Shown here: piece by piece, positions 10,000-45,608 of the stretch | Layout of the letters: each line of letters opens with the position of its first letter | How positions within the stretch are numbered: the first letter of the stretch is position 1 | Source: Xanthobacteraceae bacterium | Lineage (GTDB): Bacteria > Pseudomonadota > Alphaproteobacteria > Rhizobiales > Xanthobacteraceae | Reading direction: 5' to 3' | DNA: 64,000 bases | Assembly (NCBI GenBank): GCA_023954195.1 | Contig: JAMLIK010000001.1 | Coordinates: 1,476,628-1,540,627, forward strand | Program-made: the position numbers and the translations under genes | The notes under the pieces: generated by a model | What the model was told of the DNA's origin: nothing | Database searches by the model: none | What the model saw: the letters and a program-made list of their open reading frames with translations, nothing else

Positions 10000-10050
10000 G
10001 ATCGACCATAGCGCGATTGCATAAGCTATGGCCGATCGTGGTTTTTATTT
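10000..10050 (+). terminator. Hairpin with T-tract, no gene upstream on its strand
   Basis: GATCGaCCATAGC pairs with GCTATGGcCGATC across a 12-base loop. It is followed by GTGGTTTTTATTT on the + strand. The form is that of a rho-independent terminator reading rightward, but both flanking genes are on the - strand. It could terminate a small RNA from the repeat region or be a weak terminator for the barrel gene in the other direction. Confidence 0.5.
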
Positions 10051-10080: not shown

Positions 10081-11136
10081 TTACCAAGTATAGCGGAGTC
10101 CGGCCTGCGCGCCGATGGTCTGGAAGGTCGAGCTGAAGGCATTGAACGCGACCTGCTGTGACATTCCGGTGCCGTGAACCTCAAGATAGGACGAGAAGTT
10201 CGGGCTCCAGATCACGTTCATCTTGGCCGAACCGCGAACACCGTAGAGGTCGGTCGTGCCGAAGCTGGAATCGACGACCCGGAACAGAATCGCGGAGACG
10301 GTCGGCTGAATCTTGTAGCCCGTCCACCTCATCTCGGTGCCGATCCGCGTGCCGCCATGCAGCTCCGTGCTGTCGCCGAGCTTCACGCCGAAATTCGAAG
10401 CATATGCCTCCGAGTAAGTCACGCCGACCGTCGGTTCGAACCAGACCGAGTAAGGAAGATCGAAACGATACTGCATGTTGACGGTATAGTTGATCCCGCT
10501 GCTGTCCGGCATCGCCAAAGCGAAATTCGACGAGCTTCGGCTCCAGTTGGCCATCACCGACCCATCGATCGAGAATGCGCCGTTCATATACGACACCGTT
10601 GCCGAAGTAGACGGCATCGTGGAGTCCATCGCGAAACCCGGCGTCGTTGCGCGCGACCACGAATTGCCGCCGGTTCCGATGAATGTCAGGGCGTCCGAGG
10701 TGCCGAAAACGCCAATCTTGGTCACGTCGAACGCACCCACGACCGTCTGGACATCGACTCTGGTGGCGAACGCCGCATCGGCGCGATCGACGCTTCCGAC
10801 AAGATTGACGCCATACAGCCACGCGGGCGCCGCGGCGACGAGCGCCGGGGCCTTGGCATAGCCGAGCGCGCCGAAGGGGTTGCTGATCTTTCGCTCCGCG
10901 AACAGATCGCTGCCGTCGAAGTCGGATGTCTCGCCGCTGAAACGAAGCATGCCGGCCGGCGGCGTCACCCCGCGCCGCCGAACTTCATCACGGACGGTCT
11001 GGACGATGTTCTGAATGACGTTGCCGATGACTTCCCGCTGGATATCGTCGTATTGGGCGGCGGCGGGCTGCACCATGGCCGCAAAAAATGTGCCCGCGAA
11101 CAGCAAACCCGCAAAAAATCTCACTGAACGAAACAT
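10081..11136 (-). CDS. Outer-membrane beta-barrel protein (autotransporter-barrel-like)
   Basis: The 351-residue protein has a clear signal peptide (residues 1-27, ending AAAQYDD) and a short helical region up to about residue 60. Many alternating amphipathic strands follow, for example TVSYMNGAFSIDGSVMANW and TVNMQYRFDLPYSVWFEPTV. It ends in the aromatic outer-membrane insertion signal AGLRYTW. No passenger domain of size is present, so it is a barrel only, perhaps a porin-like or surface adhesin remnant. It is divergent from the caspase-like gene, with which it shares a 265-base AT-richer control region. Its function is unknown. Confidence 0.75.
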   Translation of the reverse strand: MFRSVRFFAGLLFAGTFFAAMVQPAAAQYDDIQREVIGNVIQNIVQTVRDEVRRRGVTPPAGMLRFSGETSDFDGSDLFAERKISNPFGALGYAKAPALVAAAPAWLYGVNLVGSVDRADAAFATRVDVQTVVGAFDVTKIGVFGTSDALTFIGTGGNSWSRATTPGFAMDSTMPSTSATVSYMNGAFSIDGSVMANWSRSSSNFALAMPDSSGINYTVNMQYRFDLPYSVWFEPTVGVTYSEAYASNFGVKLGDSTELHGGTRIGTEMRWTGYKIQPTVSAILFRVVDSSFGTTDLYGVRGSAKMNVIWSPNFSSYLEVHGTGMSQQVAFNAFSSTFQTIGAQAGLRYTW

Positions 11137-11401: not shown

Positions 11402-13600
11402 ATGTCCGAATCTATTTCAGCGAGACGCGAGACGCACAGCGGCGACGGAGCCTCGCGCAGGCTTGGTTTTCCAAGCAAAGGGGCATTTTACGCGGTCCTT
11501 CGCGTCATCACCTTTTGCTTGGCCCTTGCGATGCTGTCGGTCGGGTGGGCTGTCTCGGCCTCGGCCGAGGAGCGGATTGCGCTTGTCATCGGAAACAGCG
11601 ACTACCGCAACGTCGGCAAGCTCCCGAATCCCGTCAACGACGCCGCCGACATCGCCGGGTCCCTCAAGCGGCTCGGATTCAACGTCACCCACCTGAGCAA
11701 CGTGGACTATGACGGTTTCCGGCATGCCTTGATCGATTTTGGCAACGCCGCGAGGACGGCCGACAAGGCCGTGATCTTCTATGCCGGCCACGGCGTCGAA
11801 ATCGACGGCAAGAACTGGCTCATTCCGGTCGATGCGGCGATCAAGTCCGCCGTCGACGTCTATGCCGAGGCCGTCAACCTCGAAACCCTGATCGACATCT
11901 CGATCTATCCGAAAGTCCTCGGCCTCGTGGTCCTCGATGCCTGTCGAAACGATCCGTTCGCGGCGGCCGCCCCGTCGAGCGGGCGCGCGCTGGCGGCGAG
12001 CGGCGCCGGCGCATCCACGAAGAAGCGCGCGAAAGCGCCCGCCGCGGCGATCCAGGTCGCGGCCGGCGGCCTCGCGCCGGTCGAGGTCAACGATAACGTG
12101 CTGGTGGCGTTCGCCGCGGCGGCGGGCACGACCGCCAGCGACGGCGCGGGCCGCAACAGCCCCTATTCCGGGGCGTTGCTGCGCTATGTCGAAAAGCCCG
12201 GTCTTGAGATCAACTACCTGTTCCGAAACGTGCACGACGACGTTCTGAACGAAACCAAGACCCAGAGCCCCACCGTCTACGGCACCCTGTCCCGAGACGA
12301 GATCTTTCTCAACGGCGTCGCCAGCGTCGCCGCCGGCGAGGTCAACGCCGAAGCCGAGAAAGTGGCATGGGCGTTCGTGCGCACGACAAGCGACATCGCC
12401 ACCTTGCGCCGCTTCACCGAACAGTTTCCCGCGAGCGCCCATCTGCCCGAGGCGCGGGAGCGGCTCGCGGGGCTCGAAGGCGCGGAAAAGCTGGCATGGT
12501 CGATCGTCGAGAAAGAAAAGTCCGCTCCCGCGTATCGTGCCTTCCTCGACCTCTATCCGAACGGCGAACACGCCGAAGGCGCACGCGCGACGCTGGCTTC
12601 GCTGCAAACGGCGTCGGGTGCGGCGAAGCACGCGTCCGCCGCGCCCAACCTGCCGAAGCCGCCGGCTTCAACCTATCAGCTCGCATCCGCCGAGGCCACC
12701 GCCGAGAACTCGGGCTCGATCGACAAAGCCTGGGATGTACTCAGGGAATCCCGTGACAAGGCTCTCGTCGGGAAATTCGCGGAGAAGTATCCAAGCCTGC
12801 GCCAACATCGCCTGCCGGCGGGGAGCGATCTGGCGCTGCGGCCCGTCAACTCGACCGATTGGATGATGCGAACGGCGCAGGACGCGGATGTGAATGACTG
12901 CTTCGGCGGCAACTCGGCGGCGTGCGCCAAGGCCGCAAGCCGCTATCCGCAATACGCTCAACTGCAATTCCAGCTCTGCCGGATCTCGGGACAGCCCGGC
13001 TGCATGGAGAAGGCCGTCAAGGACGCTCGCCGGAAAGGCTACCTGGTTTCCGCCTATACCCGCTCGCATATCGAGATGGAGCGCAACCGCGAATATCGCC
13101 GGACGATCGAGCGCGTGAACCAGCGGGTCGGCACCATCGTCGGCAACAACGTGAGCAACGCCGTCAGCAACGCGGTCAGCAATTCCGTCAACAACGCGGT
13201 GTCGGCGGCGACCTCGCGGGCGGCCTCCGCCGCCGCGTCCCGCGCGGCCTCGGCGGCGGCGGCGCGGGCCGCGCGCAACGCCGCCTCATCGGCGGCATCG
13301 GAAGCCGCGGCGCGCGCCGCCTCCAATGCCGCGAGCAACATTCGGGTTCCGTCCGACATTCGGCTGAAGTCCGATATCGTCCCGCTGACGCGAACCCGCG
13401 GCGGCTTCCAGCTCTATCGCTACCGCTATATCGGCGACGATACGTTCTACGTCGGCGTCATGGCTCAGGATATCGCGCGTCAGATGCCGGCCGCGGTCTT
13501 GGTCGCGGACGACGGCTATTTGCAGGTCAACTACGGCTTGCTGGGCATCGCGTTCCTGACCTACAGTGACTGGGTGAGATCACACGCGATTCCGAACTGA
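11402..13600 (+). CDS. Exported caspase-like protease with Ala-rich stalk and C-terminal S74-type domain
   Basis: The 732-residue protein has a basic N terminus and hydrophobic export or anchor segment (about 31-54), then a peptidase C14 p20 domain (56-305). The catalytic His130 (FYAGHGVEIDGKNW) and Cys181 (LVVLDACRNDPF) are both present. A helical middle follows (315-575). Next is a low-complexity Ala/Ser/Asn stretch (583-646, repeats like SNAVSNAV and RAASAAAS). Residues 651-732 begin SDIRLKSDIVPL and contain GVMAQDIARQMPAAV and LQVNYGLL. This is the pattern of the peptidase S74 intramolecular chaperone of phage tail spikes, with Ser651 and Lys656 in the dyad positions. The start at 11402 is chosen over 11306 because an AAAGGG site precedes it. 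Two bases separate it from the next caspase-like gene. Family matches are by eye; the joint function is inference. Confidence 0.85.
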   Translation: MSESISARRETHSGDGASRRLGFPSKGAFYAVLRVITFCLALAMLSVGWAVSASAEERIALVIGNSDYRNVGKLPNPVNDAADIAGSLKRLGFNVTHLSNVDYDGFRHALIDFGNAARTADKAVIFYAGHGVEIDGKNWLIPVDAAIKSAVDVYAEAVNLETLIDISIYPKVLGLVVLDACRNDPFAAAAPSSGRALAASGAGASTKKRAKAPAAAIQVAAGGLAPVEVNDNVLVAFAAAAGTTASDGAGRNSPYSGALLRYVEKPGLEINYLFRNVHDDVLNETKTQSPTVYGTLSRDEIFLNGVASVAAGEVNAEAEKVAWAFVRTTSDIATLRRFTEQFPASAHLPEARERLAGLEGAEKLAWSIVEKEKSAPAYRAFLDLYPNGEHAEGARATLASLQTASGAAKHASAAPNLPKPPASTYQLASAEATAENSGSIDKAWDVLRESRDKALVGKFAEKYPSLRQHRLPAGSDLALRPVNSTDWMMRTAQDADVNDCFGGNSAACAKAASRYPQYAQLQFQLCRISGQPGCMEKAVKDARRKGYLVSAYTRSHIEMERNREYRRTIERVNQRVGTIVGNNVSNAVSNAVSNSVNNAVSAATSRAASAAASRAASAAAARAARNAASSAASEAAARAASNAASNIRVPSDIRLKSDIVPLTRTRGGFQLYRYRYIGDDTFYVGVMAQDIARQMPAAVLVADDGYLQVNYGLLGIAFLTYSDWVRSHAIPN

Positions 13601-13602
13601 GA

Positions 13603-15138
13603 ATGCGGCTTTCACCACCAGCGATCATCTTCGCGTTCGCGGCGGCTGTTGTTGTCCTTTCCAGCTTCCCCGCCGGAGCGAAAGGAGGCCGCGTCGCGCT
13701 GGTCGTTGGCAATGCGGACTATGCGAACGCGCCGCGTCTGCCGACCTCCCTCAACGATGCCGAGGATATCGCCGACGCCCTCACCCGTCTCGGCTTCGAG
13801 ATCGTTCTTCGCCGCGATGCGACCGTGGCCGACCTGCGTTCCGCGATCGAGGAATTCTCGCGCAAGGCCGCCGAGGCGGATATCGCGATCGTCTACTACG
13901 CCGGCTATCACCTGAACATCGGCGTCAGCGGTTATCTGGTTCCCGTCGACGCCGGGCCTTCGACCCCGTCCGACCTGCACAGCCAGACCGTCTCGTTGCC
14001 GGAGGTGATGTCCAGCGCCGGCAAGGCGCATTCGCTGGGGTTGGTGATTCTCGATGCGTTGCACGGAAATCCGTTTCCCGTGCAGGCGGAGCGGTCGAAT
14101 GTCGATCCCGGCGCCGGAGCGGCTTCGTCGCGGTCCGGCGGCGCGCGCAACGTGCTTCTGTTGTTCGCCGCCGAGCCGAGCAAGATCTCGGAACGGGGCA
14201 GCGGGCGCAACAGCCCACTCGCTTCGGCGCTGCTTGAGAATCTCCCCAAACCCGGCCTTGAGATCAACTTCCTGCTCCGCAATGTGCGCGACCATGTGCG
14301 AAGCGCGACGCAATCCAGACAGACGCCGTATATGTACGGCCAGCTTTCCAAGCAGAGGATTTTCCTCGCCTCGCGCGAGGACGGCCCCGCCTCCCCTTCG
14401 CAAGCCGATGCCGCGAAGGTGCAGCCATGCGACGAACTCGCGGCGGCGCCGGATGACGCCGACAAACATCCGAAGGTCGCGGGAATAGCGATTGAGAAGA
14501 TCGTGGCCGCCGATGCGGTCGCCGCCTGCTCGGACGCCGTCAAGCGGTTTCCCACGACCAATCGCTTTTATTACCAGCTTGGCCGGGCGTTCTTTGCAGC
14601 ACGGGACCATGACGCCGCCCTGACCAGCTACAAGAAGGCTTTCGAATTGGGTAGCGTGCGCGCGCTCTATGCCCTCGGCGCGATATACGATCATGGCGAC
14701 GGCGTCGACCGCGATCCGGAACGCGCCCGCTTCTACTATGAGATCGCGGCCCAAAAAAATTTCGCCCCGGCCATCGCAAGTCTCGGGGTGCTGTACGAGC
14801 ATGGGGCCGGCGTGACGCAGGATCCCGCCAAGGCCCACGAGTTCTATCGGCGCGCCGCGGACCTTGGCGACGCCCGCGCCATCAACAAGATGGGTGAACT
14901 GATCGAGAAGGAGAGCGGGGTCGCGCAGAACGCCCGGCGCGCGCGCGTGCTGTACGAAAAGAGCGCCAGGATGGGGTATCCGGACGCGATGGTGAATCTG
15001 GCCCGTTGCTTCGCGAATGGCATCGGCGGCCGCAAGGATATTCCCGAAGCAAGAAAGCTGCTTGACCGCGCCGCCAAGGCCGGAAGCGCGCAGGCCCGCA
15101 ATATTCTCACCGCCACAGGCAGCCGCGGGCGGAGGTAA
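13603..15138 (+). CDS. Exported pseudo-caspase with Sel1-like repeats
   Basis: The 511-residue protein has a signal peptide (1-26) and a caspase p20-like domain (28-256) that parallels its upstream neighbour strand by strand. Both catalytic positions are changed: GHG is GYH (Tyr102) and DACR is DALH (Leu153), so it should be proteolytically inactive. His103, one residue on, is the only nearby His. From about residue 305 come a TPR-like unit and four Sel1-like repeats (for example ALYALGAIYDHGDGVDRDPE), a protein-protein interaction scaffold. The spacing of 2 bases suggests co-expression. It may regulate or scaffold the active partner, which is inference. Confidence 0.85.
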   Translation: MRLSPPAIIFAFAAAVVVLSSFPAGAKGGRVALVVGNADYANAPRLPTSLNDAEDIADALTRLGFEIVLRRDATVADLRSAIEEFSRKAAEADIAIVYYAGYHLNIGVSGYLVPVDAGPSTPSDLHSQTVSLPEVMSSAGKAHSLGLVILDALHGNPFPVQAERSNVDPGAGAASSRSGGARNVLLLFAAEPSKISERGSGRNSPLASALLENLPKPGLEINFLLRNVRDHVRSATQSRQTPYMYGQLSKQRIFLASREDGPASPSQADAAKVQPCDELAAAPDDADKHPKVAGIAIEKIVAADAVAACSDAVKRFPTTNRFYYQLGRAFFAARDHDAALTSYKKAFELGSVRALYALGAIYDHGDGVDRDPERARFYYEIAAQKNFAPAIASLGVLYEHGAGVTQDPAKAHEFYRRAADLGDARAINKMGELIEKESGVAQNARRARVLYEKSARMGYPDAMVNLARCFANGIGGRKDIPEARKLLDRAAKAGSAQARNILTATGSRGRR

Positions 15139-32572: not shown

Positions 32573-35500
32573 CTACCAGGTGTCGATGCACGGACGCTTG
32601 CGATGGGCGCGCTTGTCCGGCGCGGGCACCGAGCGCAGGCCGACCATGATCCAGTCGCGCGTCGCCGCCGGGTCGATCACCTCGTCGATCTCCAGCACCG
32701 AGGCGATCGAGGTCGCTTTGCCGTCGGCATAGAGCTGCGCCACCTTGTCGCGATAATATTTTTCGCGCGCGACGGGATCGGCGATCGCTTCCATCTCCTT
32801 GCGGAATCCCAGCCGCACATAGCCCTCCAGCCCCATGCCGCCGAACTCGCCGGTCGGCCACGCCACGGTGAAGAACGAGGCATGGAAGCCGCCGCCGAGC
32901 ATCGATTGCGCGCCGAGCCCGTAGCCCTTGCGCAGCACGATGCCGAACAGCGGCACCGTGAGGCTCGCGCCGGTGACGAACATCCGCGCGACATGGCGCA
33001 CGATCGCGGTCTTCTCGGCCTCGGGGCCGACCATGAAGCCTGGCGTGTCGCACAGCGACACCAGCGGAATGTCGAAAGCGTCGCACAATTGCATGAAGCG
33101 CGCCGCCTTGTCGCCGGCGTCGGCATCGATCGCACCGCCGAGATGTTTCGGATTGTTGGCGATCAGGCCGAACGGCTTGCCCTCGATGCGGATGAAGGCG
33201 GTAATCATGCCGACGCCGAAATCGCGGCGGATTTCCAGCACCGAGCCTTCATCCGCGACCAGATCGATCACGCTGCGGATGTCGTAGACGCGCAGCCGGT
33301 TCTCCGGCACGGCACGGCGCAACAGCCGCTGGTCCGGCGCTTCCCAACTGGTCACCGCGCCCTGGAAATAGGACAGGTATTTTTGCGCGACGCTGGTGGC
33401 TTCCGCCTCGTCCTCGACCACAATGTCGATCACGCCGTTGGGCGCCTGGAACGACACCGGGCCGACCTCCGCCGGGTCATAGACGCCGAGGCCGCCGCCC
33501 TCGATCATCGCCGGGCCGCCCATCCCGATCGAGGCGTTTTTGGTGGCGATGATGACGTCGCAGACGCCGAGCATCGCGGCGTTGCCGGCGAAGCAATAGC
33601 CGGACACCACGCCGACCACCGGCACCAGGCCGGAGAGCTTCGCGAACTGCACGAAGGACGGGCCGTCGAGGCCGGTCATGCCGAGGCGGTCGGTGTCGCC
33701 GGGCCGCCCGCCGCCGCCCTCGGCATAGAACACCACCGGCATCCGCCACTGCTCGGCGAGGCCGAGCATGCGGTCGATCTTCTTGTGGTTCATGTGCCCT
33801 TGCGTGCCCGCCAGCACGGTGTAGTCGTAGGCGATCACCATGCAGCGCGCCTCGTGCGCGCCGAACTTGTCGGCGTTGACGGTGGCGACGCCGGTGATGA
33901 GGCCGTCGGCCGGGGTGTTCTTGATGAGATCGTCGAGCGTACGGCGCTGGCGCTGGGCCGCGACCGCCAGCGAGCCGTATTCAACGAAGGAGCCTTCATC
34001 GACCAGTTGCGCGATGTTCTCGCGGGTGGTGCGCTGGTTGGTCCTGCGTCGCCGTTCAACCGAGGCGGGCCGGTTCTCGTCGCGGGTGTTGGCATGGCGC
34101 GCCAGCACTTCGGCGAGATCGGGGCGGATGTGGTCGAGGTCGATATCCACCGCCTCCTCCGCCGCGCCGCCCTCGACGTCGGCCGGCGCGATGAACAGGA
34201 TCGCATCGCCCAGCATCAAGGTCTCGCCGCTCGCGGCCGCGATCTTGACCACCCTGCCGCCCTCGGGGGCGGCGACGAGATGCTCCATCTTCATCGATTC
34301 GATCACCACGATCTGCTGACCGGGCCGCACCAGATCGCCCTCGGCGACGTCGATGGCGACGATGGTGCCTTGCAGCGGCGCACCCACCGCGACCGATCCC
34401 TCCGGCGCGGCGACGGCGGCGGCTGTCGCGCCGCTCTGCGCAACGCCCGCGGCCTGTTCAAAGAACAGCGGCCGCGCCGGCGCTGCCGCGGCCCGCACCA
34501 GTTCGGCGATATGGGTATCGACGAAATTGGTGCTGACGCGGTTGGCGACAAAGTCCGGATGTGCCAGCACCGCCTGAATGAAAGGCGCATTGGTGCCGAC
34601 ACCCTCGACGCGGAATTCGCGCAAGGCGCGCGCGGCTTTCGCCACCGCCTCCGGCCAGCGCGCCGCCGGCGCATGCACGATCACTTTCGCCAGCAGCGAA
34701 TCGAAGGCGGCGCTGGTCCTGTATCCCGAATATCCGAACGTATCGACGCGCACGCCCGGCCCCGACGGCGGATCGAACACGGTGAGCGTGCCACCGGTCG
34801 GCGTGGTGGCGCCGCTTGCGTCCATCGTCTCCATGTTGATGCGCAATTGCACGGCATAGCCGCGCGGCGCCGGCACGGCGGCCTGCGTCAGCCCGAGCGA
34901 GGCCAGCGTCGCGCCGCCTGCGACCGCGATCTGCGCGCGCACCAGATCGACGCCGAGCACCTCCTCGGTCACGGTATGCTCGACCTGAAGGCGCGGATTG
35001 GCCTCGATGAAGGCAAACGCCGGCTCATCGCCATCGGTCGCGCCGTCCACCAGGAATTCAAACGTGCCGAGGCTGTCGTAACGCGCGGCCGCCGCCAGTT
35101 GCTTGGCGGCGTCGACGATGCGCGCGCGCAGGCTCTCGCTGAGCGACGGACTCGGCGCGACCTCGATCAGCTTCTGGTTGCGGCGCTGGATGGTGCATTC
35201 GCGCTCCCACAGATGGCTGATGTCCCCGTGCCTGTCGCCGATGATCTGCACCTCGATATGGCGCGCCTTGCGGATCAGCCGCTCGACGTAAACGCCGTCG
35301 CTGCCGAACGCCGCCTTGGCTTCCGACTGGCAGCGCGCATAGGCGTCGTCGAGCTGCGCCGCGTCCTCGACCACGCGCATGCCGCGCCCGCCGCCGCCGG
35401 CCAGCGCCTTAATCATCACCGCGGCATTCGGGCCGAGCGAGGCGAAGAACGCCTTGACCTCGTCCAGCGTGGTCGGCCCCTCGGTGCCGTCGATGATCGG

Positions 35501-35884
35501 CACGCCGCAGCGCTTCGCCAGTATCTTGGCCTCGACCTTGTCACCGAACAACTCCAGCGCCTCCGGCGACGGCCCGACAAAGACGATCCCTTCCTCCTTG
35601 CAGCGCCGCGCGAGCCGCGCGTTTTCGCTGAGGAAGCCGTAGCCCGGATGCAGCGCGTCGCAGCCGGCATCCTTCGCCGCCGCCACCACGCCATCGATGT
35701 CGAGATAAGCGCGCGCGCCCCGCCCCGGAATTTCGCGCACCTCGTCGGCGGCGCGCACATGCAGCGACAAGGCGTCGTCGGCGGGATGGATCGCAACCGA
35801 AGCGATGCCGGATTCACCGGCGGCGCGGGCGATGCGAATGGCGATCTCGCCGCGATTGGCGATCAGGAGCTTGCGAAATGACAT
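32573..35884 (-). CDS. Single-chain acyl-CoA carboxylase (biotin carboxylase-BCCP-carboxyltransferase)
   Basis: The 1103-residue protein carries all three activities. The biotin carboxylase starts LIANRGEIAIRIARAA and has AGGGGRGMRVVED. The biotinyl domain has VIESMKMEH, with the biotin Lys near residue 533. The carboxyltransferase covers about 590-1103 and includes GHMNHKKIDRMLGLAEQW and LISLCDTPGF-like VSLCDTPGFMVGPEAE. This order and length match the single-polypeptide long-chain acyl-CoA carboxylases described in Rhodopseudomonas and mycobacteria. The preferred acyl-CoA is unknown. The ATG at 35884 shares its A with the upstream lyase stop. It is last in a five-gene operon. Confidence 0.9.
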   Translation of the reverse strand: MSFRKLLIANRGEIAIRIARAAGESGIASVAIHPADDALSLHVRAADEVREIPGRGARAYLDIDGVVAAAKDAGCDALHPGYGFLSENARLARRCKEEGIVFVGPSPEALELFGDKVEAKILAKRCGVPIIDGTEGPTTLDEVKAFFASLGPNAAVMIKALAGGGGRGMRVVEDAAQLDDAYARCQSEAKAAFGSDGVYVERLIRKARHIEVQIIGDRHGDISHLWERECTIQRRNQKLIEVAPSPSLSESLRARIVDAAKQLAAAARYDSLGTFEFLVDGATDGDEPAFAFIEANPRLQVEHTVTEEVLGVDLVRAQIAVAGGATLASLGLTQAAVPAPRGYAVQLRINMETMDASGATTPTGGTLTVFDPPSGPGVRVDTFGYSGYRTSAAFDSLLAKVIVHAPAARWPEAVAKAARALREFRVEGVGTNAPFIQAVLAHPDFVANRVSTNFVDTHIAELVRAAAAPARPLFFEQAAGVAQSGATAAAVAAPEGSVAVGAPLQGTIVAIDVAEGDLVRPGQQIVVIESMKMEHLVAAPEGGRVVKIAAASGETLMLGDAILFIAPADVEGGAAEEAVDIDLDHIRPDLAEVLARHANTRDENRPASVERRRRTNQRTTRENIAQLVDEGSFVEYGSLAVAAQRQRRTLDDLIKNTPADGLITGVATVNADKFGAHEARCMVIAYDYTVLAGTQGHMNHKKIDRMLGLAEQWRMPVVFYAEGGGGRPGDTDRLGMTGLDGPSFVQFAKLSGLVPVVGVVSGYCFAGNAAMLGVCDVIIATKNASIGMGGPAMIEGGGLGVYDPAEVGPVSFQAPNGVIDIVVEDEAEATSVAQKYLSYFQGAVTSWEAPDQRLLRRAVPENRLRVYDIRSVIDLVADEGSVLEIRRDFGVGMITAFIRIEGKPFGLIANNPKHLGGAIDADAGDKAARFMQLCDAFDIPLVSLCDTPGFMVGPEAEKTAIVRHVARMFVTGASLTVPLFGIVLRKGYGLGAQSMLGGGFHASFFTVAWPTGEFGGMGLEGYVRLGFRKEMEAIADPVAREKYYRDKVAQLYADGKATSIASVLEIDEVIDPAATRDWIMVGLRSVPAPDKRAHRKRPCIDTW

Positions 35885-36789
35885 CAATGATTTCCCGTTC
35901 GAGACAAGGACAGGTCGGCGCGGGCCAATAGCCGCCGGGCCAATTTGAGATGCGGCATGTCGAGCATCCGCCCGTCAAGGCTCACCGCGCCCGCGCCCGG
36001 ATTGGCCGCGAAAGCCGCGATCACCGCCCGCGCCTGCGCGATCGCGGCCGGGCTCGGCGTAAACACGTCGTTGATGATCCCGACCTGCGCCGGATGAATC
36101 GCCATCTTGCCGGTGAAGCCGTCGCGCCGCGCCTCCTCGCATTCGCGGCGTAACCCGTCAAGGTCGCGGAAAGCGGGATAAACCGAATCGATCGGCTGCA
36201 CGCCGGCCGCCACCGCGCCGAACAGGCAAAGCGAACGCACCAGACGAAACGGCTCGATGTAGCGGCCGGCGGCGTCATGCTTCGATTCAGCGCCGATGTC
36301 GGCCGCCAAATCCTCCGCTCCCCAGGTCAGGCCGCCGAGCCGCGCGCTCGCCCCGGCGTAACTCCCGAGCTGGAAGATCGCTTTCGCGGTCTCGGTGGCC
36401 ACCACGAAAATACCGACATGGCCGGCGGCGATGCCGTGCGCCCGCTCGCGCTTCGCCAGTTGGGCATCGAGATATTCGACATCGGGGCCGCCCTCCGCCT
36501 TCGGCAGCATGACGGCGTCCGGGCGCGCCGGCATGACGGCGTCGAGATCGGCTTCGGTGAGCCCGCTGTCGCGGGCGTTGACGCGGACGATCAGGCCGGG
36601 CCGCGCGGCCGCCGCGACATGCCGGTCGAGAAAGTCGCGCGCGACGTCCCGCGCCAACGGCTTACGGTCGGCGACGACGGAATCCTCAAGGTCGAGGATC
36701 AGGGCATCGGCGCCGGCCGCCATCGCCTTGGCGAGCTTGTTTTCGGAGTCCGCGGGAACGAACAGAAACGAACGCATGAGGCCGGGCAT
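35884..36789 (-). CDS. CitE-like CoA-ester lyase (HpcH/HpaI aldolase family)
   Basis: The 301-residue TIM-barrel lyase starts MRSFLFVPADSENKLAKAM and has ALILDLEDSV, MLPKAEGGPDV and LTWGAEDLAADIGAES, all typical of citrate-lyase beta/malyl-CoA lyase proteins. Such enzymes cleave or form malyl-, methylmalyl-, citramalyl- or similar CoA esters with Mg2+. Next to a MaoC hydratase and carboxylases it may finish a branched or dicarboxylic acyl-CoA route. Which ester it uses cannot be read. Confidence 0.88.
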   Translation of the reverse strand: MPGLMRSFLFVPADSENKLAKAMAAGADALILDLEDSVVADRKPLARDVARDFLDRHVAAAARPGLIVRVNARDSGLTEADLDAVMPARPDAVMLPKAEGGPDVEYLDAQLAKRERAHGIAAGHVGIFVVATETAKAIFQLGSYAGASARLGGLTWGAEDLAADIGAESKHDAAGRYIEPFRLVRSLCLFGAVAAGVQPIDSVYPAFRDLDGLRRECEEARRDGFTGKMAIHPAQVGIINDVFTPSPAAIAQARAVIAAFAANPGAGAVSLDGRMLDMPHLKLARRLLARADLSLSRTGNH

Positions 36790-36808
36790 CCACTGGATTT
36801 GAACATTG

Positions 36809-37264
36809 TTAGCTCGCCGGCCGTTTTCGCATGAAGGCGACGCGGGTACAATTGGCGACTTCCCGGTCGTTCTGGTTGAAGGCGCGATGCCTGAACGTCA
36901 CCAGCCCGGCGTCGGGCCGCGATCCGCTGGGGCGGACCGCCTCCACCGTGGTCACCACGCGGATCGAATCGCCGTGAAACACCGGAGCCGGAAAATTGAC
37001 GTCGGTCATGCCGAGGTTGGCGATGGTGGTGCGCAGGGTGGTGTCATGCACCGATATGCCGATCATCAACCCGAGCGTGAACAGCGAATTCACCAGCGGC
37101 TTGCCGAACTCGGTGTCTGCCGCGAAATGAAAATCGATGTGCAGCGGTTGCGGATTCAGCGTCATGTTGGAGAACAGCATGTTGTCCATCTCCGTCACCG
37201 TGCGGGTGATCGGATGGTGGAACGTCTGCCCGACCGAAAACTCCTCGAACCATAGACCCGGCAC
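36809..37264 (-). CDS. MaoC-family acyl-CoA hydratase/dehydratase
   Basis: The 151-residue hot-dog protein has the hydratase pattern with NPQPLHIDFHFAADTEFGKP (Asp/His region) and SLFTLGLMIGISVHDTT. It resembles mesaconyl-CoA hydratase-like proteins that often sit with CitE lyases. It would hydrate an enoyl-CoA to the hydroxyacyl- or malyl-type ester cleaved by the adjacent lyase. It is spaced 12 and 19 bases from its operon neighbours. Confidence 0.85.
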   Translation of the reverse strand: MPGLWFEEFSVGQTFHHPITRTVTEMDNMLFSNMTLNPQPLHIDFHFAADTEFGKPLVNSLFTLGLMIGISVHDTTLRTTIANLGMTDVNFPAPVFHGDSIRVVTTVEAVRPSGSRPDAGLVTFRHRAFNQNDREVANCTRVAFMRKRPAS

Positions 37265-37276
37265 TTCGACCTCCCT

Positions 37277-39280
37277 TCAGGATTTTGCGGCTGGCGCCGG
37301 TTCGATCGCGACGATCAACTGCCCGGCGCGAACGGTCTTGCCCTTCTCCGCCGCGACTTGCGTGACACGGCCGGCGCACGCCGCCTTCAAATCGGTGAAC
37401 AGCTTCATCGATTCCAGCACGGCGACGGTCTGTCCGGCCTCCACCGCATCGCCCTCCGCCACCATGATGTCCGCCAGCAGGCCCGGCATCGTCGCGGTGA
37501 CGCTGTCGGGATCGGCGCCGTTCGCGGTCGCGGCGGTCTCCAGCGCGACCTCAGCCGTGAGACGAACCTCGAACCTGGCTTCGACCGATCGAACGCGGAT
37601 CGCGACCCGATCACCGTCGACGACGAAGGGAAAGCGATGCGTCACTTCCCCGATCCGCGCGATCAGCACGCCTTGAGCGGCCTCGGCCACGACGGCGAGA
37701 ACGCCATCGGGGTTGGAGATCGTGAACCGGTCGCCCTCCCCCGCCACCGTCATCGCCCAGGCGTCGCCCTCGCTCCTGACGGTGAGATGACTGACGCCGG
37801 CGCGGCCGCCGGGCGCGAGAACCCGAAAGCCGGACTTGCCGGACCATGGTGACTGTTGTTCCGACGAACCGCGCGCAATCCTGAGGACAAGCGCGGCCAG
37901 GCGTCGCGCCAGGGCCATGTCTTCCGGATCGAACGTCCAGCCGTTCGGCCAGTTTTCGCCAATCAGCCGGGTCGTTGCGCGCCCCCCCGCGAAATCGGCG
38001 CTGCGCAGCACGTCGCGCAGGAACGCGCGATTGGTCGCCGGCCCCAGCACGGTCAATTGCTCAAGCGCGCTCGCGAGTTGCACAATCGCTTTGTCGCGGT
38101 CGCTGCCGAATGCGATCACCTTGGCCAACAAGCTGTCGTAGTGCAACCCAACCTCGGCGCCGGTCGCGATGCCGCTGTCGATGCGCACATCGGCTGGCGG
38201 CGACCACAACTCGATCTTTCCGGCGTCGGGACGAAAGCCCTGGTCGGCGCGTTCGGCGGTGAGGCGCGCCTGGATCGCGTGGCCGCGACAGGCGATGTCG
38301 TCCTGCTTGAACGGCAGCGGCTCGCCGGCCGCGGCCCGCAACTGCCATTCGACGATGTCGAGGCCGGTGATTTCCTCCGTCACCGTGTGCTCGACCTGAA
38401 GCCGGGTGTTCATTTCGAGAAAAAAGATCTCCTCGGTCGCGGCGTCGACCATGAACTCCATGGTGCCGACCGAGTCGTAGCCGATGGCGGACGCGAGCTG
38501 GACGGCGTGGCGGTGCAGCGCCTGACGGGCCGGCGCGGAGAGGTTCGGCGCCGGCGCTTCCTCCAGCAGCTTCTGATTGTTGCGTTGAACCGAGCAATCG
38601 CGCTCGAACAGATGCACCAGATGACCGTGCTTGTCGCCGAGGATCTGCACCTCGACATGACGCGGCCGCATGATGAGTTTCTCGATCAGCAGGCGGCCGT
38701 CGCCGAACGCCGCCTCCGCCTCGCGGCGCGCCGCGATCAGCGAATCGCGCAGCGCCGTCGCCTCATGCACCGGCCGCATCCCCTTGCCGCCGCCGCCGGC
38801 CGACGCTTTGACCATCACCGGCAGGCCGATGCGCTCCGCCTCCGTCGCGAGGCGCGCGTCGCTCTGGTCGTCGCCGTCGTATCCCGGCGCAACCGGGACG
38901 CCGGCCGCGACCGCCAGACGCTTGGCTTCGATCTTGGACCCCATCGCGGCGATCGCCTCGACACGCGGGCCGACCCAGACAAGACCATGTTGCCGGCAGA
39001 GTTGCGGCAGGTCGGTGCGCTCGGACAGAAAGCCGTAGCCGGGATGAATGGCGTCCGCGCCGGCGGCGAGCGCCGCGCCGACGATGCGGTCGGCCCGAAG
39101 ATAGCTGTCGCGCGCGGGCGCCGGGCCGATCGGCACGGCGACATCGGCGAGCCCGACATGCAGGGCGTCACGATCCATGTCCGAATGGACGGCGACGGTG
39201 CGCAACCCCATGCGCTTCGCCGTGCGGATGATGCGGACGGCGATTTCGCCGCGATTGGCGATGAGAAGCGTGCGAAACAT
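37277..39280 (-). CDS. Acyl-CoA carboxylase alpha subunit, biotin-containing (methylcrotonyl-CoA type)
   Basis: The 667-residue protein has an ATP-grasp biotin carboxylase (LIANRGEIAVRIIRTAKRMG, KASAGGGGKGMRPVHE, EMNTRLQVEHTVTE). A linker follows, then a C-terminal biotinyl domain with VLESMKLF (biotin Lys near 627). Met-Lys-Leu-Phe in the biotin motif is usual for methylcrotonyl/geranyl-CoA carboxylases. It works with the beta subunit encoded 8 bases upstream. In leucine or terpenoid breakdown it would carboxylate a 3-methyl-branched enoyl-CoA; the exact substrate is inference. Confidence 0.9.
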   Translation of the reverse strand: MFRTLLIANRGEIAVRIIRTAKRMGLRTVAVHSDMDRDALHVGLADVAVPIGPAPARDSYLRADRIVGAALAAGADAIHPGYGFLSERTDLPQLCRQHGLVWVGPRVEAIAAMGSKIEAKRLAVAAGVPVAPGYDGDDQSDARLATEAERIGLPVMVKASAGGGGKGMRPVHEATALRDSLIAARREAEAAFGDGRLLIEKLIMRPRHVEVQILGDKHGHLVHLFERDCSVQRNNQKLLEEAPAPNLSAPARQALHRHAVQLASAIGYDSVGTMEFMVDAATEEIFFLEMNTRLQVEHTVTEEITGLDIVEWQLRAAAGEPLPFKQDDIACRGHAIQARLTAERADQGFRPDAGKIELWSPPADVRIDSGIATGAEVGLHYDSLLAKVIAFGSDRDKAIVQLASALEQLTVLGPATNRAFLRDVLRSADFAGGRATTRLIGENWPNGWTFDPEDMALARRLAALVLRIARGSSEQQSPWSGKSGFRVLAPGGRAGVSHLTVRSEGDAWAMTVAGEGDRFTISNPDGVLAVVAEAAQGVLIARIGEVTHRFPFVVDGDRVAIRVRSVEARFEVRLTAEVALETAATANGADPDSVTATMPGLLADIMVAEGDAVEAGQTVAVLESMKLFTDLKAACAGRVTQVAAEKGKTVRAGQLIVAIEPAPAAKS

Positions 39281-39288
39281 GCTTGGCC

Positions 39289-40842
39289 CTACATCCGGTA
39301 GACCGGTCGCGCCGCGCCGTCGCGCGGCTCGTCGGCGGCGAGCGAAAGACAGAGGCCGAGCACGTCGCGGGTCTGCGCCGGCTCGATGATGCCGTCGTCC
39401 CAGAGCCGCGCCGTGGCGTAATACGGATCGCTCTGTTCCTCGAACTGCGCGCGGGTGCGCCGGTCCAGCTCGGCGATCGCCGCGTCATTGCCGTCGCCCT
39501 TCAGGCTCTGCCGACGCAACTCAGTGACGACGGTGGCGGCGACGTCGGGGCTCATGGTGGCGATGCGCGAATTGGGCCAGGCGAACAGAAAGCGCGGCCG
39601 GAAGCCGCGCCCGCACATGCCGTAATTGCCCGCGCCATAGGAGCCGCCGATCAGCACGGTGTATTTCGGCACCCGCGCGTTGGACACCGCGTAGACCAGC
39701 TTGGCCGAATGCTTGGCGATGCCGGCGCGCTCGGCTTCGGTGCCGACCATGAAGCCGGTGATGTTCTGAAGGAACAGCAGCGGAATATGCCGCTGGTCGC
39801 ACAACTCGATGAAATGCGCGCCCTTGACCGAGGATTCCGAGAACAGCACGCCGTTGTTGGCGAGAATGCCGACGGGAAAGCCGTGGATGCGCGCGAAGCC
39901 GGTGACCAGCGACGCGCCATAGGCCGGTTTGAACTCATGCAATTCGCCGCCATCGACGATCCGCGCGATCACGGCGCGGACATCGTAGGGCTTTTTCAGA
40001 TCGACCGGCACCAGCGCGGCGATGTCGTCCGGATTGCCAAGGGGCGGCGCCGGCGCGAACGGCGGCTGCGCCGCGCGCCGCAGCGCGCCGAAACCCAGCA
40101 CGATCTCCCGCAGCTTGCCGATCGCCGCGGTTTCGTTGTCGACGACATGATCGGTGACGCCGGAGACGGTGGCGTGCATGTCCGCCCCGCCCAGCGTTTC
40201 GCCGTCGACGATCTCGTTGATGGCCGCCTTGACGATCGGCGGTCCGCCGAGATGGATGCGGCCGGTGCCGCGCACCATCACCGATTCATCGGACAGCGCC
40301 GGGATATACGCACCGCCCGCGGTGCAGCCGCCGAACACCGCCGAAATCTGCGGTATTCCGGCCGCCGACATCCGGCATTGATTGTAGAACGTGCCGCCGA
40401 AGTGGTCGCGGTCCGGAAACACGCGATCCTGCTCGGGCAGGAACGCCCCGCCGCAATCGACCAGATAGATGCAGGGCAGCCGATGCGCCTCGGCGATCTC
40501 CTGCGCCCGCAGATGCTTGCGGACGGTCTCGGCGAAGAACGAGCCGCCCTTCACGGTGGCGTCGTTGGCGATCACCATGCAGGGCGTGTCGTGCACCATG
40601 CCGATGCCGGTGACGATTCCCGCCGACGGCAATTCGCCGCCATACATCCCGTTCGCCGCCAGCGGCGACAGTTCGAGAAACGGGCTGCCGGTATCGAGCA
40701 GCAGATCGACGCGGTCGCGCACCGGAATCTTGCCGCGCGCCCGGTGACGCTCGACCAGCGCCGCGCCGCCGCCTTGCAGCGCGGCGCCGTGCCGGCTGCG
40801 CAACGCCTCGACCAGCGCCTCAAATCGCAATGCCGTCATCAT
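39289..40842 (-). CDS. Acyl-CoA carboxylase beta subunit, carboxyltransferase (methylcrotonyl-CoA type)
   Basis: The 517-residue crotonase-fold protein shows [54 protein letters not shown] and ELGGADMH-like [16 protein letters not shown]. These are characteristic of methylcrotonyl-CoA carboxylase beta subunits. The C-terminal half has [16 protein letters not shown] and [12 protein letters not shown]. The start at 40842 follows GGAGGGAGC; an extension to 40911 is not supported. It heads the operon, below a palindromic operator candidate at 40904. Confidence 0.9.
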
Positions 40843-40903
40843 GCTCCCTCCGGCCGGCGGATCGTCATCGGCCAGCTTGCGGTCGGTTCCGCGATGGCTT
40901 ATA

Positions 40904-40919
40904 CCTAACAACTGTTAGA
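40904..40919. promoter_or_regulatory. Operator candidate, carboxylase/acyl-CoA dehydrogenase divergent promoter
   Basis: CCTAACAACTGTTAGA contains the near-perfect palindrome CTAACA-AC-TGTTAG. It lies between the divergent starts at 40842 and 41003. It matches 12 of 16 bases of a second palindrome, CCTAACGATTGGTAGG at 48443, upstream of the operon that encodes a TetR regulator. The shared pattern suggests one regulator for both units. Confidence 0.65.
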
Positions 40920-42170: not shown

Positions 42171-45100
42171 ATGAGCAGTCCAGCCGCCGCGGCCGTTTCG
42201 CTCGATGACAAATACAGCCGCGACACCGGGCGCATCTACCTGACCGGAGTGCAGGCGCTGGTGCGTCTGCCGCTGATGCAGCGACGCCTGGATCGCGCGA
42301 GCGGACTGAACACGGCGGGCTTCATCTCCGGCTACCGCGGCTCGCCGCTGGGCACCTATGACCGCGAGCTGTGGTCCGCCAAGCACCACCTCGCGCAGGA
42401 TGACGTGGTCTTTCAGCCGGGATTGAACGAGGATCTCGCCGCCACCAGCGTCTGGGGAACGCAACAGATCGGCCTGTCGCCCGGCGCGACGCGGGACGGC
42501 GTGTTCGCGATCTGGTACGCCAAAAGTCCCGGCGTCGATCGTTCCGGCGACGCGCTCAAGCACGCCAATGCGGCCGGCACCGCGCTATTCGGCGGCGTGC
42601 TGGCGATCGCCGGCGACGACCACGCCTGCAAGTCGGCGAGCCTGCCGTCGCAATCCGACTACGCCTTGCTCGATGCGTCGATTCCCGTGCTGCACCCGGC
42701 CAATGTCGCGGAGGTCATGCGCTTCGGCTTGATCGGCTGGGCGATGTCGCGCGCGACCGGTCTCTGGGTCGGCATGAAGGCGCTGGCGGACACCATGGAT
42801 TCCGCCGCCGCCGTCGAACTCGCCGATGTCGTGCCGCAGATCGTGCAACCTCCGGGTCTGCCGACCGATGTCTCGATCCGCTGGCCGGATACGCCGCTCG
42901 AACAGGAGCGCCGGCTGTTCGACCTGCGGCTGCCGGCGGCGATCGCCTTCGGCCGCGCCAACGGCCTCAACCGCGCGATCGCCGATCCCGGCCCGCAACG
43001 CCGCCGGCTGACGATCCTCGCCATCGGCAAGTCGCGGCTCGACGTAACGCAGGCGCTGGTGATGCTCGGCCTCGACATCGAGCGGCTCGCGGCGCTGGGC
43101 ATCGGTTTCTGCGCCATCGGCATGCCATGGCCGCTCGATCCCGATTTCGTGCGCGAGCACTGCGCCGATGCGGAGGAGGTTTTGATCGTCGAGGAGAAGC
43201 GGCCGCTGGTGGAAGACCAGGCGGCGCGCGTTCTGCTCACCGGCGATTGCGTTCGCAAGCCGCGACTGGTCGGCAAGATCGACCAGCACGGCCAACCGCT
43301 GCTGTCGCCGCGCGCGGCGTTTTCCGCCGATCATCTTGCGCGCGTCATCGCCGCACGTCTGGCGGGACTGGGATTCGGCGACCGGTTGCCGCCGCGCTTT
43401 CTTTCCGACGACGCAAGCGGACAAGCCGTCGAGCCGGCGCTGGCGAAACGCCTGCCCTACTTCTGCTCGGGCTGTCCGCACAATCGTTCGACGCGGGTGC
43501 CGGAGGGAAGCCGCGCGCTGGCCGGCATCGGCTGTCACTACATGGCGCAATGGATGGATCGCGACACCACGACCTTCACCCAGATGGGCGCGGAAGGTTC
43601 GAGCTGGATCGGGCAAGCGCCGTTCACCAGCACCCGGCACGTTTTCGTCAATCTGGGCGACGGCACCTATGCCCATTCCGGCCTGCTGGCGATCCGGGCC
43701 GCGATCGCCGCCGGCGTCACCATCACCTATAAGCTGCTCTATAACGACGCCGTGGCGATGACCGGCGGCCAGGCCGCCGAGGGCGGCTTCACCGTCGCGC
43801 AGATCGCGCGGCAACTCGCGGCCGAGGGCGTGCGCGATATCCGCATCGTCGCCGAGCAGCCGGAGCGCCATCGCGGCGGAACGCTGCCGCCCGGCGTCAC
43901 CGTCGCGCCGCGCGACCGTCTCGAAGCGGTGCAGCGCGCGCTGCGCGAGACCTCCGGGGTCTCGGTGCTGATTTACGATCAGGTCTGCGCGGCCGAGAAG
44001 CGCCGCCGCCGCAAACGCGGCCAGATGCCCGATGCCGGCAAGCGTATCGTCATCAATGAAGCCGTCTGCGAGGGCTGCGGCGATTGCGGCAGGAAATCGA
44101 ACTGCGTCTCCGTGATACCGCTCGAAACCGAGTTCGGCCGCAAGCGGCAGATCGATCAGACCACTTGCAATCAGGACGCCACCTGCGTCGAGGGCTTTTG
44201 CCCGAGCTTCGTGACCATCGAGGGCGGCGTCGCGCGGAAGCCGCAATCCGACACGATCGCGCCGCCCACGGTATCGGCGCCGCCGCTGGATTTGTCCCGC
44301 CCCGCGAATCTGGTCGCGGGCGGCATCGGCGGCACCGGCATCGTCACCGTCGGCGCCATTCTGGGGATGGCGGCGCATCTCGACGGCCGCGGCGTTTCGG
44401 TGATGGACCAGATCGGCCTCGCGCAGAAAGGCGGCGAAGTCACCACCCACGTTCGCATTGCCGCGAGCCCGGCCGACATCGGCCCGGTGCGGCTCGCGCC
44501 GGGCGAGGCCGATACGTTGATCGGATGCGACCTCGCGGTGGCGGCGACCCCCGAGGTGCTGGGATTGCTGGCGCCGGACGCGGTCGCGGTGGTCAACGAT
44601 CATGTGGTGATGACCGGCGACTTCACCGCCAATCCGGACCTCGTGTTTCCCGGCGCGGCGATGAAGCGCCGCATCGAAGCGCGCGCCGAGACATCGTTCG
44701 CCGACCTGTCGGCGCTGGCGACGGCGTTGCTCGGCGACGCCGTCGGCGCCAACATGATGGCGCTCGGCGTCGCCTGGCAGAAAGGCCGCGTGCCGCTGAC
44801 GGAAGCCTCCATCCTGCAAGCCATCGAATTGAACGGCGCGGCCGTCGCCATGAACAAGCGCGCCTTCGCGTGGGGGCGGGCGCTGGCGTCCGATCCCGAC
44901 GACGTCGTCGGCCGACTGTCCGGTTCGAGCCCGAATCCGCCGGCGACGACGCTGGCCGATATCGTCGAGATCCGTGCCGCCGAACTGACCCGCTATCAGA
45001 ACGAACGGCTTGCGCGCCGTTTCCGCGCGCTGGTTTCCGAGGTCGCGCGCGCCGAAAACGCCATCCGTCCCGGCGCGACGGAGCTTAGCGTGACGGTCGC

Positions 45101-45608
45101 GCGCGGCTTTCACAAACTGCTCGCATACAAGGACGAGTACGAGGTCGCGCGCCTGCACGTCGAAACCGCCTTCCTGGCGCGGTTGCGCGAGCGGTTCGAC
45201 GGCGGCGCCCTCGCCTTCCATCTGGCCCCGCCGCTGCTGGCGCGCCGCGATCCGGCCACCGGCCATCCGCGCAAGATGCGGTTCGGCCCGTGGGTGGTGC
45301 CGGTTTTCAAACTGCTGGCCAAGCTGAAATTCCTGCGCGGAAGCTGGGCCGATCCGTTCGGCTACACTTTGGAACGGCAATCCGAGCGCCGCATGATCGC
45401 GCAATACGAAACGTTGCTGCGCACGCGCATCGTGCCGGACCTTAACGCGACAAACCATGCGCTGGCGGTGGAGATCGCAACCTTGCCGCTGACCATTCGC
45501 GGCTTCGGGCACGTCAAGACGGCGGCCGAGGCGGATGCGCTGAAGCGGCAGACCGCATTGCTCCTGCGCTGGCCGGATGCCGGGATCGCCGATCAGGCGG
45601 CCGAATAG
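42171..45608 (+). CDS. Indolepyruvate ferredoxin oxidoreductase, fused subunits
   Basis: The 1145-residue protein oxidatively decarboxylates aryl 2-oxoacids to aryl-acyl-CoA with ferredoxin as acceptor. It has the pyrimidine-domain start GRIYLTGVQALVRLPLMQRR and GFISGYRGSPLGTYD. The TPP-binding half has PYFCSGCPHNRSTRVPEGSR and GCHYMAQWMDR. An iron-sulfur motif follows (VCEGCGDCGRKSNCVSV), and the gamma-type domain begins GGIGGTGIVTVGAILGMAAH. The order is the usual proteobacterial IorA-IorB fusion. It lies 7 bases after the acyl-CoA dehydrogenase, so the two are co-transcribed and probably serve amino-acid-derived acids. Confidence 0.93.
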   Translation: MSSPAAAAVSLDDKYSRDTGRIYLTGVQALVRLPLMQRRLDRASGLNTAGFISGYRGSPLGTYDRELWSAKHHLAQDDVVFQPGLNEDLAATSVWGTQQIGLSPGATRDGVFAIWYAKSPGVDRSGDALKHANAAGTALFGGVLAIAGDDHACKSASLPSQSDYALLDASIPVLHPANVAEVMRFGLIGWAMSRATGLWVGMKALADTMDSAAAVELADVVPQIVQPPGLPTDVSIRWPDTPLEQERRLFDLRLPAAIAFGRANGLNRAIADPGPQRRRLTILAIGKSRLDVTQALVMLGLDIERLAALGIGFCAIGMPWPLDPDFVREHCADAEEVLIVEEKRPLVEDQAARVLLTGDCVRKPRLVGKIDQHGQPLLSPRAAFSADHLARVIAARLAGLGFGDRLPPRFLSDDASGQAVEPALAKRLPYFCSGCPHNRSTRVPEGSRALAGIGCHYMAQWMDRDTTTFTQMGAEGSSWIGQAPFTSTRHVFVNLGDGTYAHSGLLAIRAAIAAGVTITYKLLYNDAVAMTGGQAAEGGFTVAQIARQLAAEGVRDIRIVAEQPERHRGGTLPPGVTVAPRDRLEAVQRALRETSGVSVLIYDQVCAAEKRRRRKRGQMPDAGKRIVINEAVCEGCGDCGRKSNCVSVIPLETEFGRKRQIDQTTCNQDATCVEGFCPSFVTIEGGVARKPQSDTIAPPTVSAPPLDLSRPANLVAGGIGGTGIVTVGAILGMAAHLDGRGVSVMDQIGLAQKGGEVTTHVRIAASPADIGPVRLAPGEADTLIGCDLAVAATPEVLGLLAPDAVAVVNDHVVMTGDFTANPDLVFPGAAMKRRIEARAETSFADLSALATALLGDAVGANMMALGVAWQKGRVPLTEASILQAIELNGAAVAMNKRAFAWGRALASDPDDVVGRLSGSSPNPPATTLADIVEIRAAELTRYQNERLARRFRALVSEVARAENAIRPGATELSVTVARGFHKLLAYKDEYEVARLHVETAFLARLRERFDGGALAFHLAPPLLARRDPATGHPRKMRFGPWVVPVFKLLAKLKFLRGSWADPFGYTLERQSERRMIAQYETLLRTRIVPDLNATNHALAVEIATLPLTIRGFGHVKTAAEADALKRQTALLLRWPDAGIADQAAE

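Follow-up and report, generated by a model that had tools for sequence, protein, structure and literature searches.

A caspase ending in an S74 auto-processing domain is encoded in a conserved three-gene unit with a dead caspase and a likely outer-membrane barrel protein

Main finding

We identified, in a 64,000-nucleotide stretch of a Xanthobacteraceae genome (the window, meaning the whole stretch of DNA that was analyzed), a gene whose product joins an intact caspase domain to a C-terminal Peptidase_S74 domain over a long helical stalk. Together with the gene of a dead caspase and the gene of a likely outer-membrane beta-barrel protein, it makes up a conserved three-gene unit. The domain identities, the predicted fold of the S74 end, the conservation of the catalytic dyads, their absence from the partner protein, and the gene unit itself were all obtained by computation. 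The explanation we favor, for which we regard the case as evenly balanced, is an exported caspase that would be trimerized through S74, cut itself, and stand in the envelope as part of an assembly that also includes the dead caspase and the barrel protein. The conserved unit, and the place of this S74 domain on a branch apart from fiber-type domains, go beyond the initial annotation of the gene.

The caspase–S74 protein

The frame and its N-terminal and middle parts are as follows.

11402..13600, forward strand: caspase–helical stalk–S74 protein, 732 aa (intact open frame, Pfam)
11489..11569, forward strand: likely Sec signal peptide, about residues 30-56 (read by eye; model helix 26-49)
11573..12295, forward strand: Peptidase_C14 (caspase) domain, residues 58-298 (Pfam; top-ranked solved fold, MALT1 paracaspase)
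11789..11791, forward strand: codon of catalytic His130 (His in 16/16)
11942..11944, forward strand: codon of catalytic Cys181 (Cys in 16/16)
12311..13099, forward strand: middle helical region, residues 304-566 (helices of the full-length model)

The initial annotation had proposed that a caspase and an S74 domain share one chain and had named the Pfam search by which this could be checked; that search confirmed the pairing, with both domains above their cut-offs. Peptidase_C14 was matched at residues 58-298 (E 3.3e-33, 115.7 bits against a cut-off of 21.4), the profile being spanned to position 230 of 233 and the p10 part falling within the same profile score, and Peptidase_S74 was matched at residues 651-700 (E 1.8e-6, 28.6 bits against a cut-off of 22) with its full 58-position profile spanned. 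Both domains were matched at E <= 0.01 in 10/10 rows of alignment A2, in which the window protein is 1 of the 10 rows and for which bits were compared with cut-offs for the window protein only; S74 in G000, G002, G004, and G006 scores above the cut-off as well. The caspase dyad, His130 and Cys181, which the annotation had described as intact, and the S74 pair, Ser651 and Lys656, are retained in all 16 distinct fusion proteins.

In the full-length AlphaFold model (pLDDT 76.1), the best-ranked match of the caspase domain was the MALT1 paracaspase (E 3.2e-13). The middle region holds 4 cysteines, Cys500, Cys508, Cys526, and Cys534, that are invariant in the 16 members. An N-terminal export signal is likely from a reading of the sequence by eye. 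The own genome of 4.18 Mb encodes an S74 domain once and caspase domains 6 times, and the caspase–S74 protein was unmatched among plasmids at E 1e-40. Between positions 10000 and 15500, 2 promoter-like sites were found against 1.0 expected and 10 terminator-like sites against 5.6 expected.

Elsewhere in the window, positions 42171-45608 (forward strand) encode a single chain of 1145 residues with POR, TPP-binding, and DUF6537 domains, and positions 32573-40911 (reverse strand) hold 3 close ORFs with biotin carboxylase and carboxyl transferase domains.

The S74 domain and its expected cut

13352..13597, forward strand: S74/auto-processing domain, residues 651-732 (Pfam, AlphaFold, viral fold matches)
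13352-13354, forward strand: codon of Ser651 (Ser in 16/16)
13367-13369, forward strand: codon of Lys656 (Lys in 16/16)
13351/13352, forward strand: expected cut Pro650|Ser651 (match to the MYRF bond)

The Ser/Lys catalytic pair lies five residues apart and is present in every fused member; in the wider S74 set (alignment A4) the pair was used in picking the fragments, so that its invariance there is no test. A Pro stands directly before Ser651 (Pro650) in every row of alignments A2 (10 rows) and A6 (12 rows). After the helix ending at residue 645, the AlphaFold model continues into a compact small alpha/beta domain. When the model of stalk and S74 was compared with viral models in Foldseek, 21 matches were found at E <= 0.001, the best at E 6.2e-7 with an rmsd of 1.0 over 71 columns, and the top two were named 'Intramolecular chaperone auto-processing domain containing protein'. 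The S74-type fold of the annotation was thus borne out against viral models; the same model had no significant match in the PDB, the best being kinases at E 0.21.

A broad S74 profile, with fiber-type domains included, matched a long-tail-fiber subunit (E 1.9e-7), MYRF (4.8e-7), a putative tail fiber (1e-4), and a neck appendage (5.7e-4) in the PDB. The profile of fused domains only met MYRF at a non-significant E of 0.19, and the single window S74 sequence met a tail-fiber chain at E 0.85. In PHROGs, the C-terminal piece reached its best E, 4.6e-16, with a virion structural family, and the families matching S74 best were virion structural, DNA ejection, and tail-fiber proteins; 12 phage records match the domain, several of them annotated as S74 structural proteins. 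Judged from Pfam, PHROGs, and the viral fold search, the domain is a distant member of S74.

Among 95 S74 domains placed in a tree, those of the fusion make up a single clade (100/99, 16 rows), which stands apart from a starred group of 12 fiber-type rows and from most short ejection-type rows. The tree was built on 82 columns with classes set by Gly count and length, it has many weak forks and an unsettled bootstrap, and its sample had duplicates dropped, Gly-rich rows stopped at 18, and 'other' rows below 70 bits dropped. The neighbors of the fused clade are other kinds of protein, those scanned including DUF3300, ricin-B lectin, and FG-GAP proteins. A phage origin of the whole gene is unsupported by this placement.

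S74 ends Gly-rich proteins in many Bradyrhizobium-type loci (L072-L079, L083, and many of L197-L261), and the L072 protein, which was scanned, consists of DUF3300 and S74. It also ends a ricin-B lectin protein (L123:178-1860, reverse strand) and an FG-GAP repeat protein in a Candidatus Kuenenia record (L195:1-2727, forward strand). S74 thus seems to be widely used as a C-terminal module by proteins other than fibers.

According to passages of PMC8326128, MYRF is cut between Pro586 and Ser587 by a Ser/Lys pair and only as a trimer, and its C-terminal coiled coil is named the main driver of trimerization; trimerization and self-cutting of its auto-processing domain are also described in passages of PMC3742443. 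A fragment of 82 residues would be expected here because of the MYRF-like Pro-Ser bond, the Ser/Lys pair, and the similar fold. We looked for a C-terminal triple coiled coil of the MYRF type and found only a short end helix, residues 721-729 of the AlphaFold model, so the coil behind MYRF trimerization is nearly absent here, which speaks against the proposed mechanism. Many close S74 relatives moreover sit behind flexible Gly-rich tails, not stalks, and the job of the domain may therefore not be fiber trimerization.

For these two reasons we keep in view the alternative that S74 is a permanent trimerizing or anchoring end that makes no cut, with the caspase remaining a full-length trimer, and also the export checkpoint discussed with the barrel gene. 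A non-cutting end would suit a short S74 domain that lacks a long C-terminal coil, and shedding would serve no evident purpose in the many relatives that lie behind Gly-rich tails (a DUF3300 protein in the case scanned). An anchor, however, needs no catalytic pair, yet Ser651 and Lys656 are kept in 16/16, and every row of A2 and A6 has Pro650. We give this alternative a minority share, well short of that of a self-cutting S74 domain.

The helical stalk

13100..13351, forward strand: helical stalk of four-residue period, residues 567-650, Val-tetrads followed by Ala/Ser-tetrads (alignments, model)

An Ala/Ser/Asn-rich helical stretch had been annotated before the S74 domain. The stretch is real and its helix was modeled over residues 560-645; its length is 84 residues (567-650) and not the 64 originally given. 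From V572 to V600 a Val stands at every fourth position, invariant in the 10 A2 rows, and the sequence after it is rich in Ala and Ser. In the AlphaFold model of residues 559-732 (174 residues, mean pLDDT 92.6, built on a 56-sequence alignment), residues 560-645 form a single helix; the stalk came out poorly in the full-length model, with three segments below 50 pLDDT. The length of the stalk is 3 modulo 4 in 14/16 members with a common anchor, the exceptions being L189, where the anchor is possibly misplaced, and L295. Slippage of DNA in 12-base units is an alternative source of four-residue length steps.

Among four same-genus genes (six pairs, some with dS near 1), dN/dS was 0.09-0.15 for S74, 0.04-0.11 for the stalk, and 0.08-0.12 for the caspase domain. 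By this measure of the sequences, stalk and S74 are under purifying selection about as tight as that on the caspase domain, and their low values, like those of the caspase domain, argue that they are not drifting. The same values weigh against S74 being the jobless remnant of a phage-derived fusion, an idea suggested by the phage families that are its best PHROGs matches and by the 12 matching phage records. The fused domains moreover form one clade of 16 in which both catalytic residues persist throughout, and we consider a remnant very improbable.

Distribution of the fusion

The fusion was found in 16 distinct genomes (the window, L182-L193, L290, L295, and L302), hosted by Bradyrhizobium and two related genera, with named isolates included. 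When 40 relatives were searched together with the own genome, full-length orthologues with 80-84% identity were found in three same-genus genomes and none in four other same-genus genomes. Six genomes of a second genus, each with this fusion, were added when S74 loci were fetched. Of the best 80 of 229 confirmed stretches, 12 held both domains, all of the same gene family, in records of nine Bradyrhizobium, two Hyphomicrobiales MAGs, and one Pseudomonadota. A search guided by the barrel gene added two fusions, in G750 and in G488, the latter from a third genus. In a family sample of 391 genomes, 12 matched the fused C-terminal half over both its N-terminal part and S74, and G536 and G424 matched its N-terminal part only.

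S74 itself was present in 99/397 genomes of an order sample (E <= 1e-4) and in at least 136/391 genomes of the family sample (E <= 1e-3). Independent caspase–S74 fusions were not found in the best 80 of the 229 stretches or in selected S74 places; a rare one could occur outside the fetched S74 places.

An assembly artefact or chance chimera, for which we found no supporting point, is refuted by the occurrence of the fusion in 16 distinct genomes, with named isolates among them, and we give it practically no weight.

The downstream pseudo-caspase and the wider caspase pair

13603..15138, forward strand: pseudo-caspase with Sel1 repeats, 511 aa, dyad positions Tyr102/Leu153 (Pfam)

The gene starts two bases past the caspase–S74 gene, and its product was matched by Peptidase_C14 with 107.8 bits and by Sel1 with 112.5 bits in Pfam. 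Such a gene lies directly downstream of the fusion in 16/16 loci. Every one of these partners has lost the dyad: Tyr stands in place of His, and the Cys has become Leu or Met.

Pairs without S74 were also seen. At L309:2623-6642 (reverse strand, G424), an active caspase is followed by a pseudo-caspase in which His is kept and Cys is replaced by Ser, as read by eye. L306 (G536) has a similar caspase/pseudo-caspase pair, the caspase being spread over frames, and there L306:1353-3188 (forward strand) carries an Ala-rich stretch and then a long tail of NVKVPDVKV-type (VKVP) repeats in the place of S74. The pair is therefore wider than the fusion, and S74 is not needed for it.

The barrel gene and the three-gene unit

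10081..11136, reverse strand: likely outer-membrane beta-barrel protein, 351 aa, divergent from the caspase gene (marginal PF03797)
10981..11043, reverse strand: conserved N-terminal stretch of the barrel protein with I32, V36, V40, I44, V48, and V52 (alignment A5; helix by eye)

The barrel protein matched the autotransporter beta-domain PF03797 at E 8e-5 with 22.9 bits, below the cut-off of 26. Among 12 relatives, PF03797 was found at E <= 0.1 in 7, the best at 1.3e-6, and the TrbC pilin weakly in 8. The layout is a signal-like start, a conserved stretch spaced by Ile and Val, and then the barrel.

A barrel relative lies within the locus in 16/16 fusions, divergent upstream in 15 and, in L295, beyond the other end of the pair. 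In L188, L190, and L191, the barrel and caspase genes are separated by ORFs of more than 200 codons, and L290 has one there of 210 codons that may be spurious; the genes outside the unit vary between lineages according to the ORF lists. When barrel, caspase, and pseudo-caspase were each placed in a tree of 16 rows, the branching matched only partly. Four same-genus rows form one starred group in all three gene trees and a yuanmingense/sacchari group recurs; in contrast, L188 is grouped with L295 by its barrel (100/99) and with L189 by its caspase (87/97).

Barrel matches at E <= 1e-10 were found in 24/391 genomes, 16 of them with at least 370 bits, a line drawn where the scores fall from 372 to 175 bits. 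The 12 fusion genomes of the 391-genome sample are all among these 16 strong-barrel genomes; the other strong-barrel genomes, G625, G524, G765, and G685, had no caspase within the fetched stretch of about 6 kb on each side (to the contig end in G765). Of 12 weaker barrel places below the 370-bit line, four adjoin a caspase gene: L304, L305, L308, and L312. These distant barrel relatives thus lie beside other caspase genes (L304:2423-6413 and L305:3591-7486, both forward strand, with L308 and L312 probably one locus in two genomes, given their identical scores).

The constant barrel gene is also what could be expected if S74 served as a folding or export checkpoint, with only correctly assembled chains freed from barrel or membrane and the cut a matter of delivery, not assembly. 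Related S74 domains on other proteins, DUF3300, ricin-B lectin, and FG-GAP proteins included, would agree with such a role; the 4 of 16 strong barrels that have no caspase in the fetched stretch tell against it. We hold a checkpoint to be improbable, less so than a phage remnant.

The N-terminal stretch of the barrel protein has Ile or Val at each fourth residue, the same spacing as at the foot of the stalk. We described this likeness with three motif patterns, which were designed after the sequences had been seen and are a description, not a test, over sets that come from loci with duplicates (21 caspase–S74, 37 barrel, 31 other caspase, 68 other S74, and 5170 other ORFs). Pattern one was found in 16/21 caspase–S74 ORFs, 9/37 barrel ORFs, no other caspase, no other S74, and 2/5170 other ORFs. 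Pattern two occurred in 13/21 caspase–S74 ORFs and nowhere else (0/37 barrel, 0 other caspase, 0 other S74, 0 other), and pattern three in 16/37 barrel ORFs and 1/5170 other ORFs, with 0/21 caspase–S74, 0 other caspase, and 0 other S74. Stalk and barrel are thus linked by the loosest pattern only, and no single pattern suits both well. Contact of barrel and stalk through their like spacing is a lead and no more.

An anti-phage defense system has little support from PADLOC, in which the unit matched no defense model; P0001 had a caspase hit of 19.9 bits (E 8.5e-5), P0003 a hit of 10.8 bits, and P0002 none.

Proposed mechanism

The annotation had proposed a possible trimer on an Ala-rich stalk that sheds its chaperone at Ser651, and the present results support that reading in part. 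From these features we infer where the protein goes, how it assembles and is cut, what it touches, and how the activity of the caspase would be affected. The caspase–S74 protein would be exported through Sec and fold in the periplasm, where the C-terminal S74 domain would gather three chains over a long parallel helical stalk; that the protein trimerizes is probable. Once the trimer is right, Ser651 and Lys656 would cut Pro650|Ser651 and release 82 residues, about 9 kDa, and we lean toward such a self-cut with somewhat less assurance than toward the trimer. The product would be a stalked trimer with its caspase domains held close.

Initiator caspases and MALT1 are activated by proximity, and dead paralogues such as c-FLIP, which binds caspase-8, regulate active caspases. 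By analogy, the dead caspase from the next gene may bind and tune the active one as c-FLIP does with caspase-8; the constant gene of the dead partner fits regulation by a dead paralogue, and we put a complex of the two at even odds. The outer-membrane barrel may anchor or display the assembly, and contact between them is plausible, at a little under even chances.

A fuller picture, which we offer tentatively, is a self-assembling envelope protease complex, in which a caspase trimer built by a self-shedding chaperone would be regulated by the dead caspase and tied to the barrel through matching helices of four-residue repeats. If true, bacteria would have, outside the cytoplasm, their own equivalent of the caspase platforms that are activated by proximity. 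What large caspase families do for the bacteria that keep them is still an open question, and the natural partners of these caspases are rarely known. Here one caspase is linked in 16/16 loci to a dead paralogue and an outer-membrane protein and has a likely built-in oligomerizer; this linkage suggests an undescribed protease assembly of the cell envelope. Single residue changes or gene removals in a cultured Bradyrhizobium would allow its assembly, its activation, and its location to be probed separately.

Comparison with known systems

No paper on a caspase–S74 pairing was found in the full text of the open-licence literature, searched with caspase and 'peptidase S74' and with orthocaspase and 'tail fiber domain', in agreement with the annotation, which knew of no description of the pairing. 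'S74' is absent from the main text of the caspase surveys PMC3501461 and PMC6426788.

With the S74/ICA domains of phage fibers and MYRF, the window domain shares the Pfam match, the Ser-x4-Lys pair, the C-terminal place, and the predicted fold, and with MYRF, in the passages cited above, also the Pro directly before the catalytic Ser. Unlike in those systems, what the domain is attached to here is a caspase, which probably carries an export signal. The stalk is predicted to be helical with a four-residue period rather than a triple beta-helix, the protein is without the long C-terminal coiled coil of MYRF, and the fused S74 domains stand apart from fiber-type ones in the tree. The DUF3300-S74 proteins have a related S74 domain with the SD-x-x-LK motif, but they carry another N-terminal domain and a Gly-rich linker instead of a helical stalk.

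The caspase part resembles bacterial orthocaspases and metacaspases with C-terminal accessory domains in its His/Cys dyad, its likely signal peptide, and its alphaproteobacterial host, and it scored 30.3 bits against NCBIfam caspase_w_EACC1, far below the cut-off of 140. MALT1 is the top fold match of the caspase domain, the likeness shown being that of the caspase fold. The downstream partner is like the Rhizobiales pseudo-orthocaspases of PMC6426788 in that its caspase domain is dead and has Tyr where the catalytic His would be. In passages of that survey the commonest pseudo-orthocaspase dyads are YS, YA, and FS, whereas partners of the window type have Leu or Met at the Cys position, and the window protein has Sel1 repeats. 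In the 16 loci these pseudo-caspases always lie beside an active caspase–S74 gene. With the window protein, the auto-processing domain is extended past phage fibers and the MYRF family to a protease.
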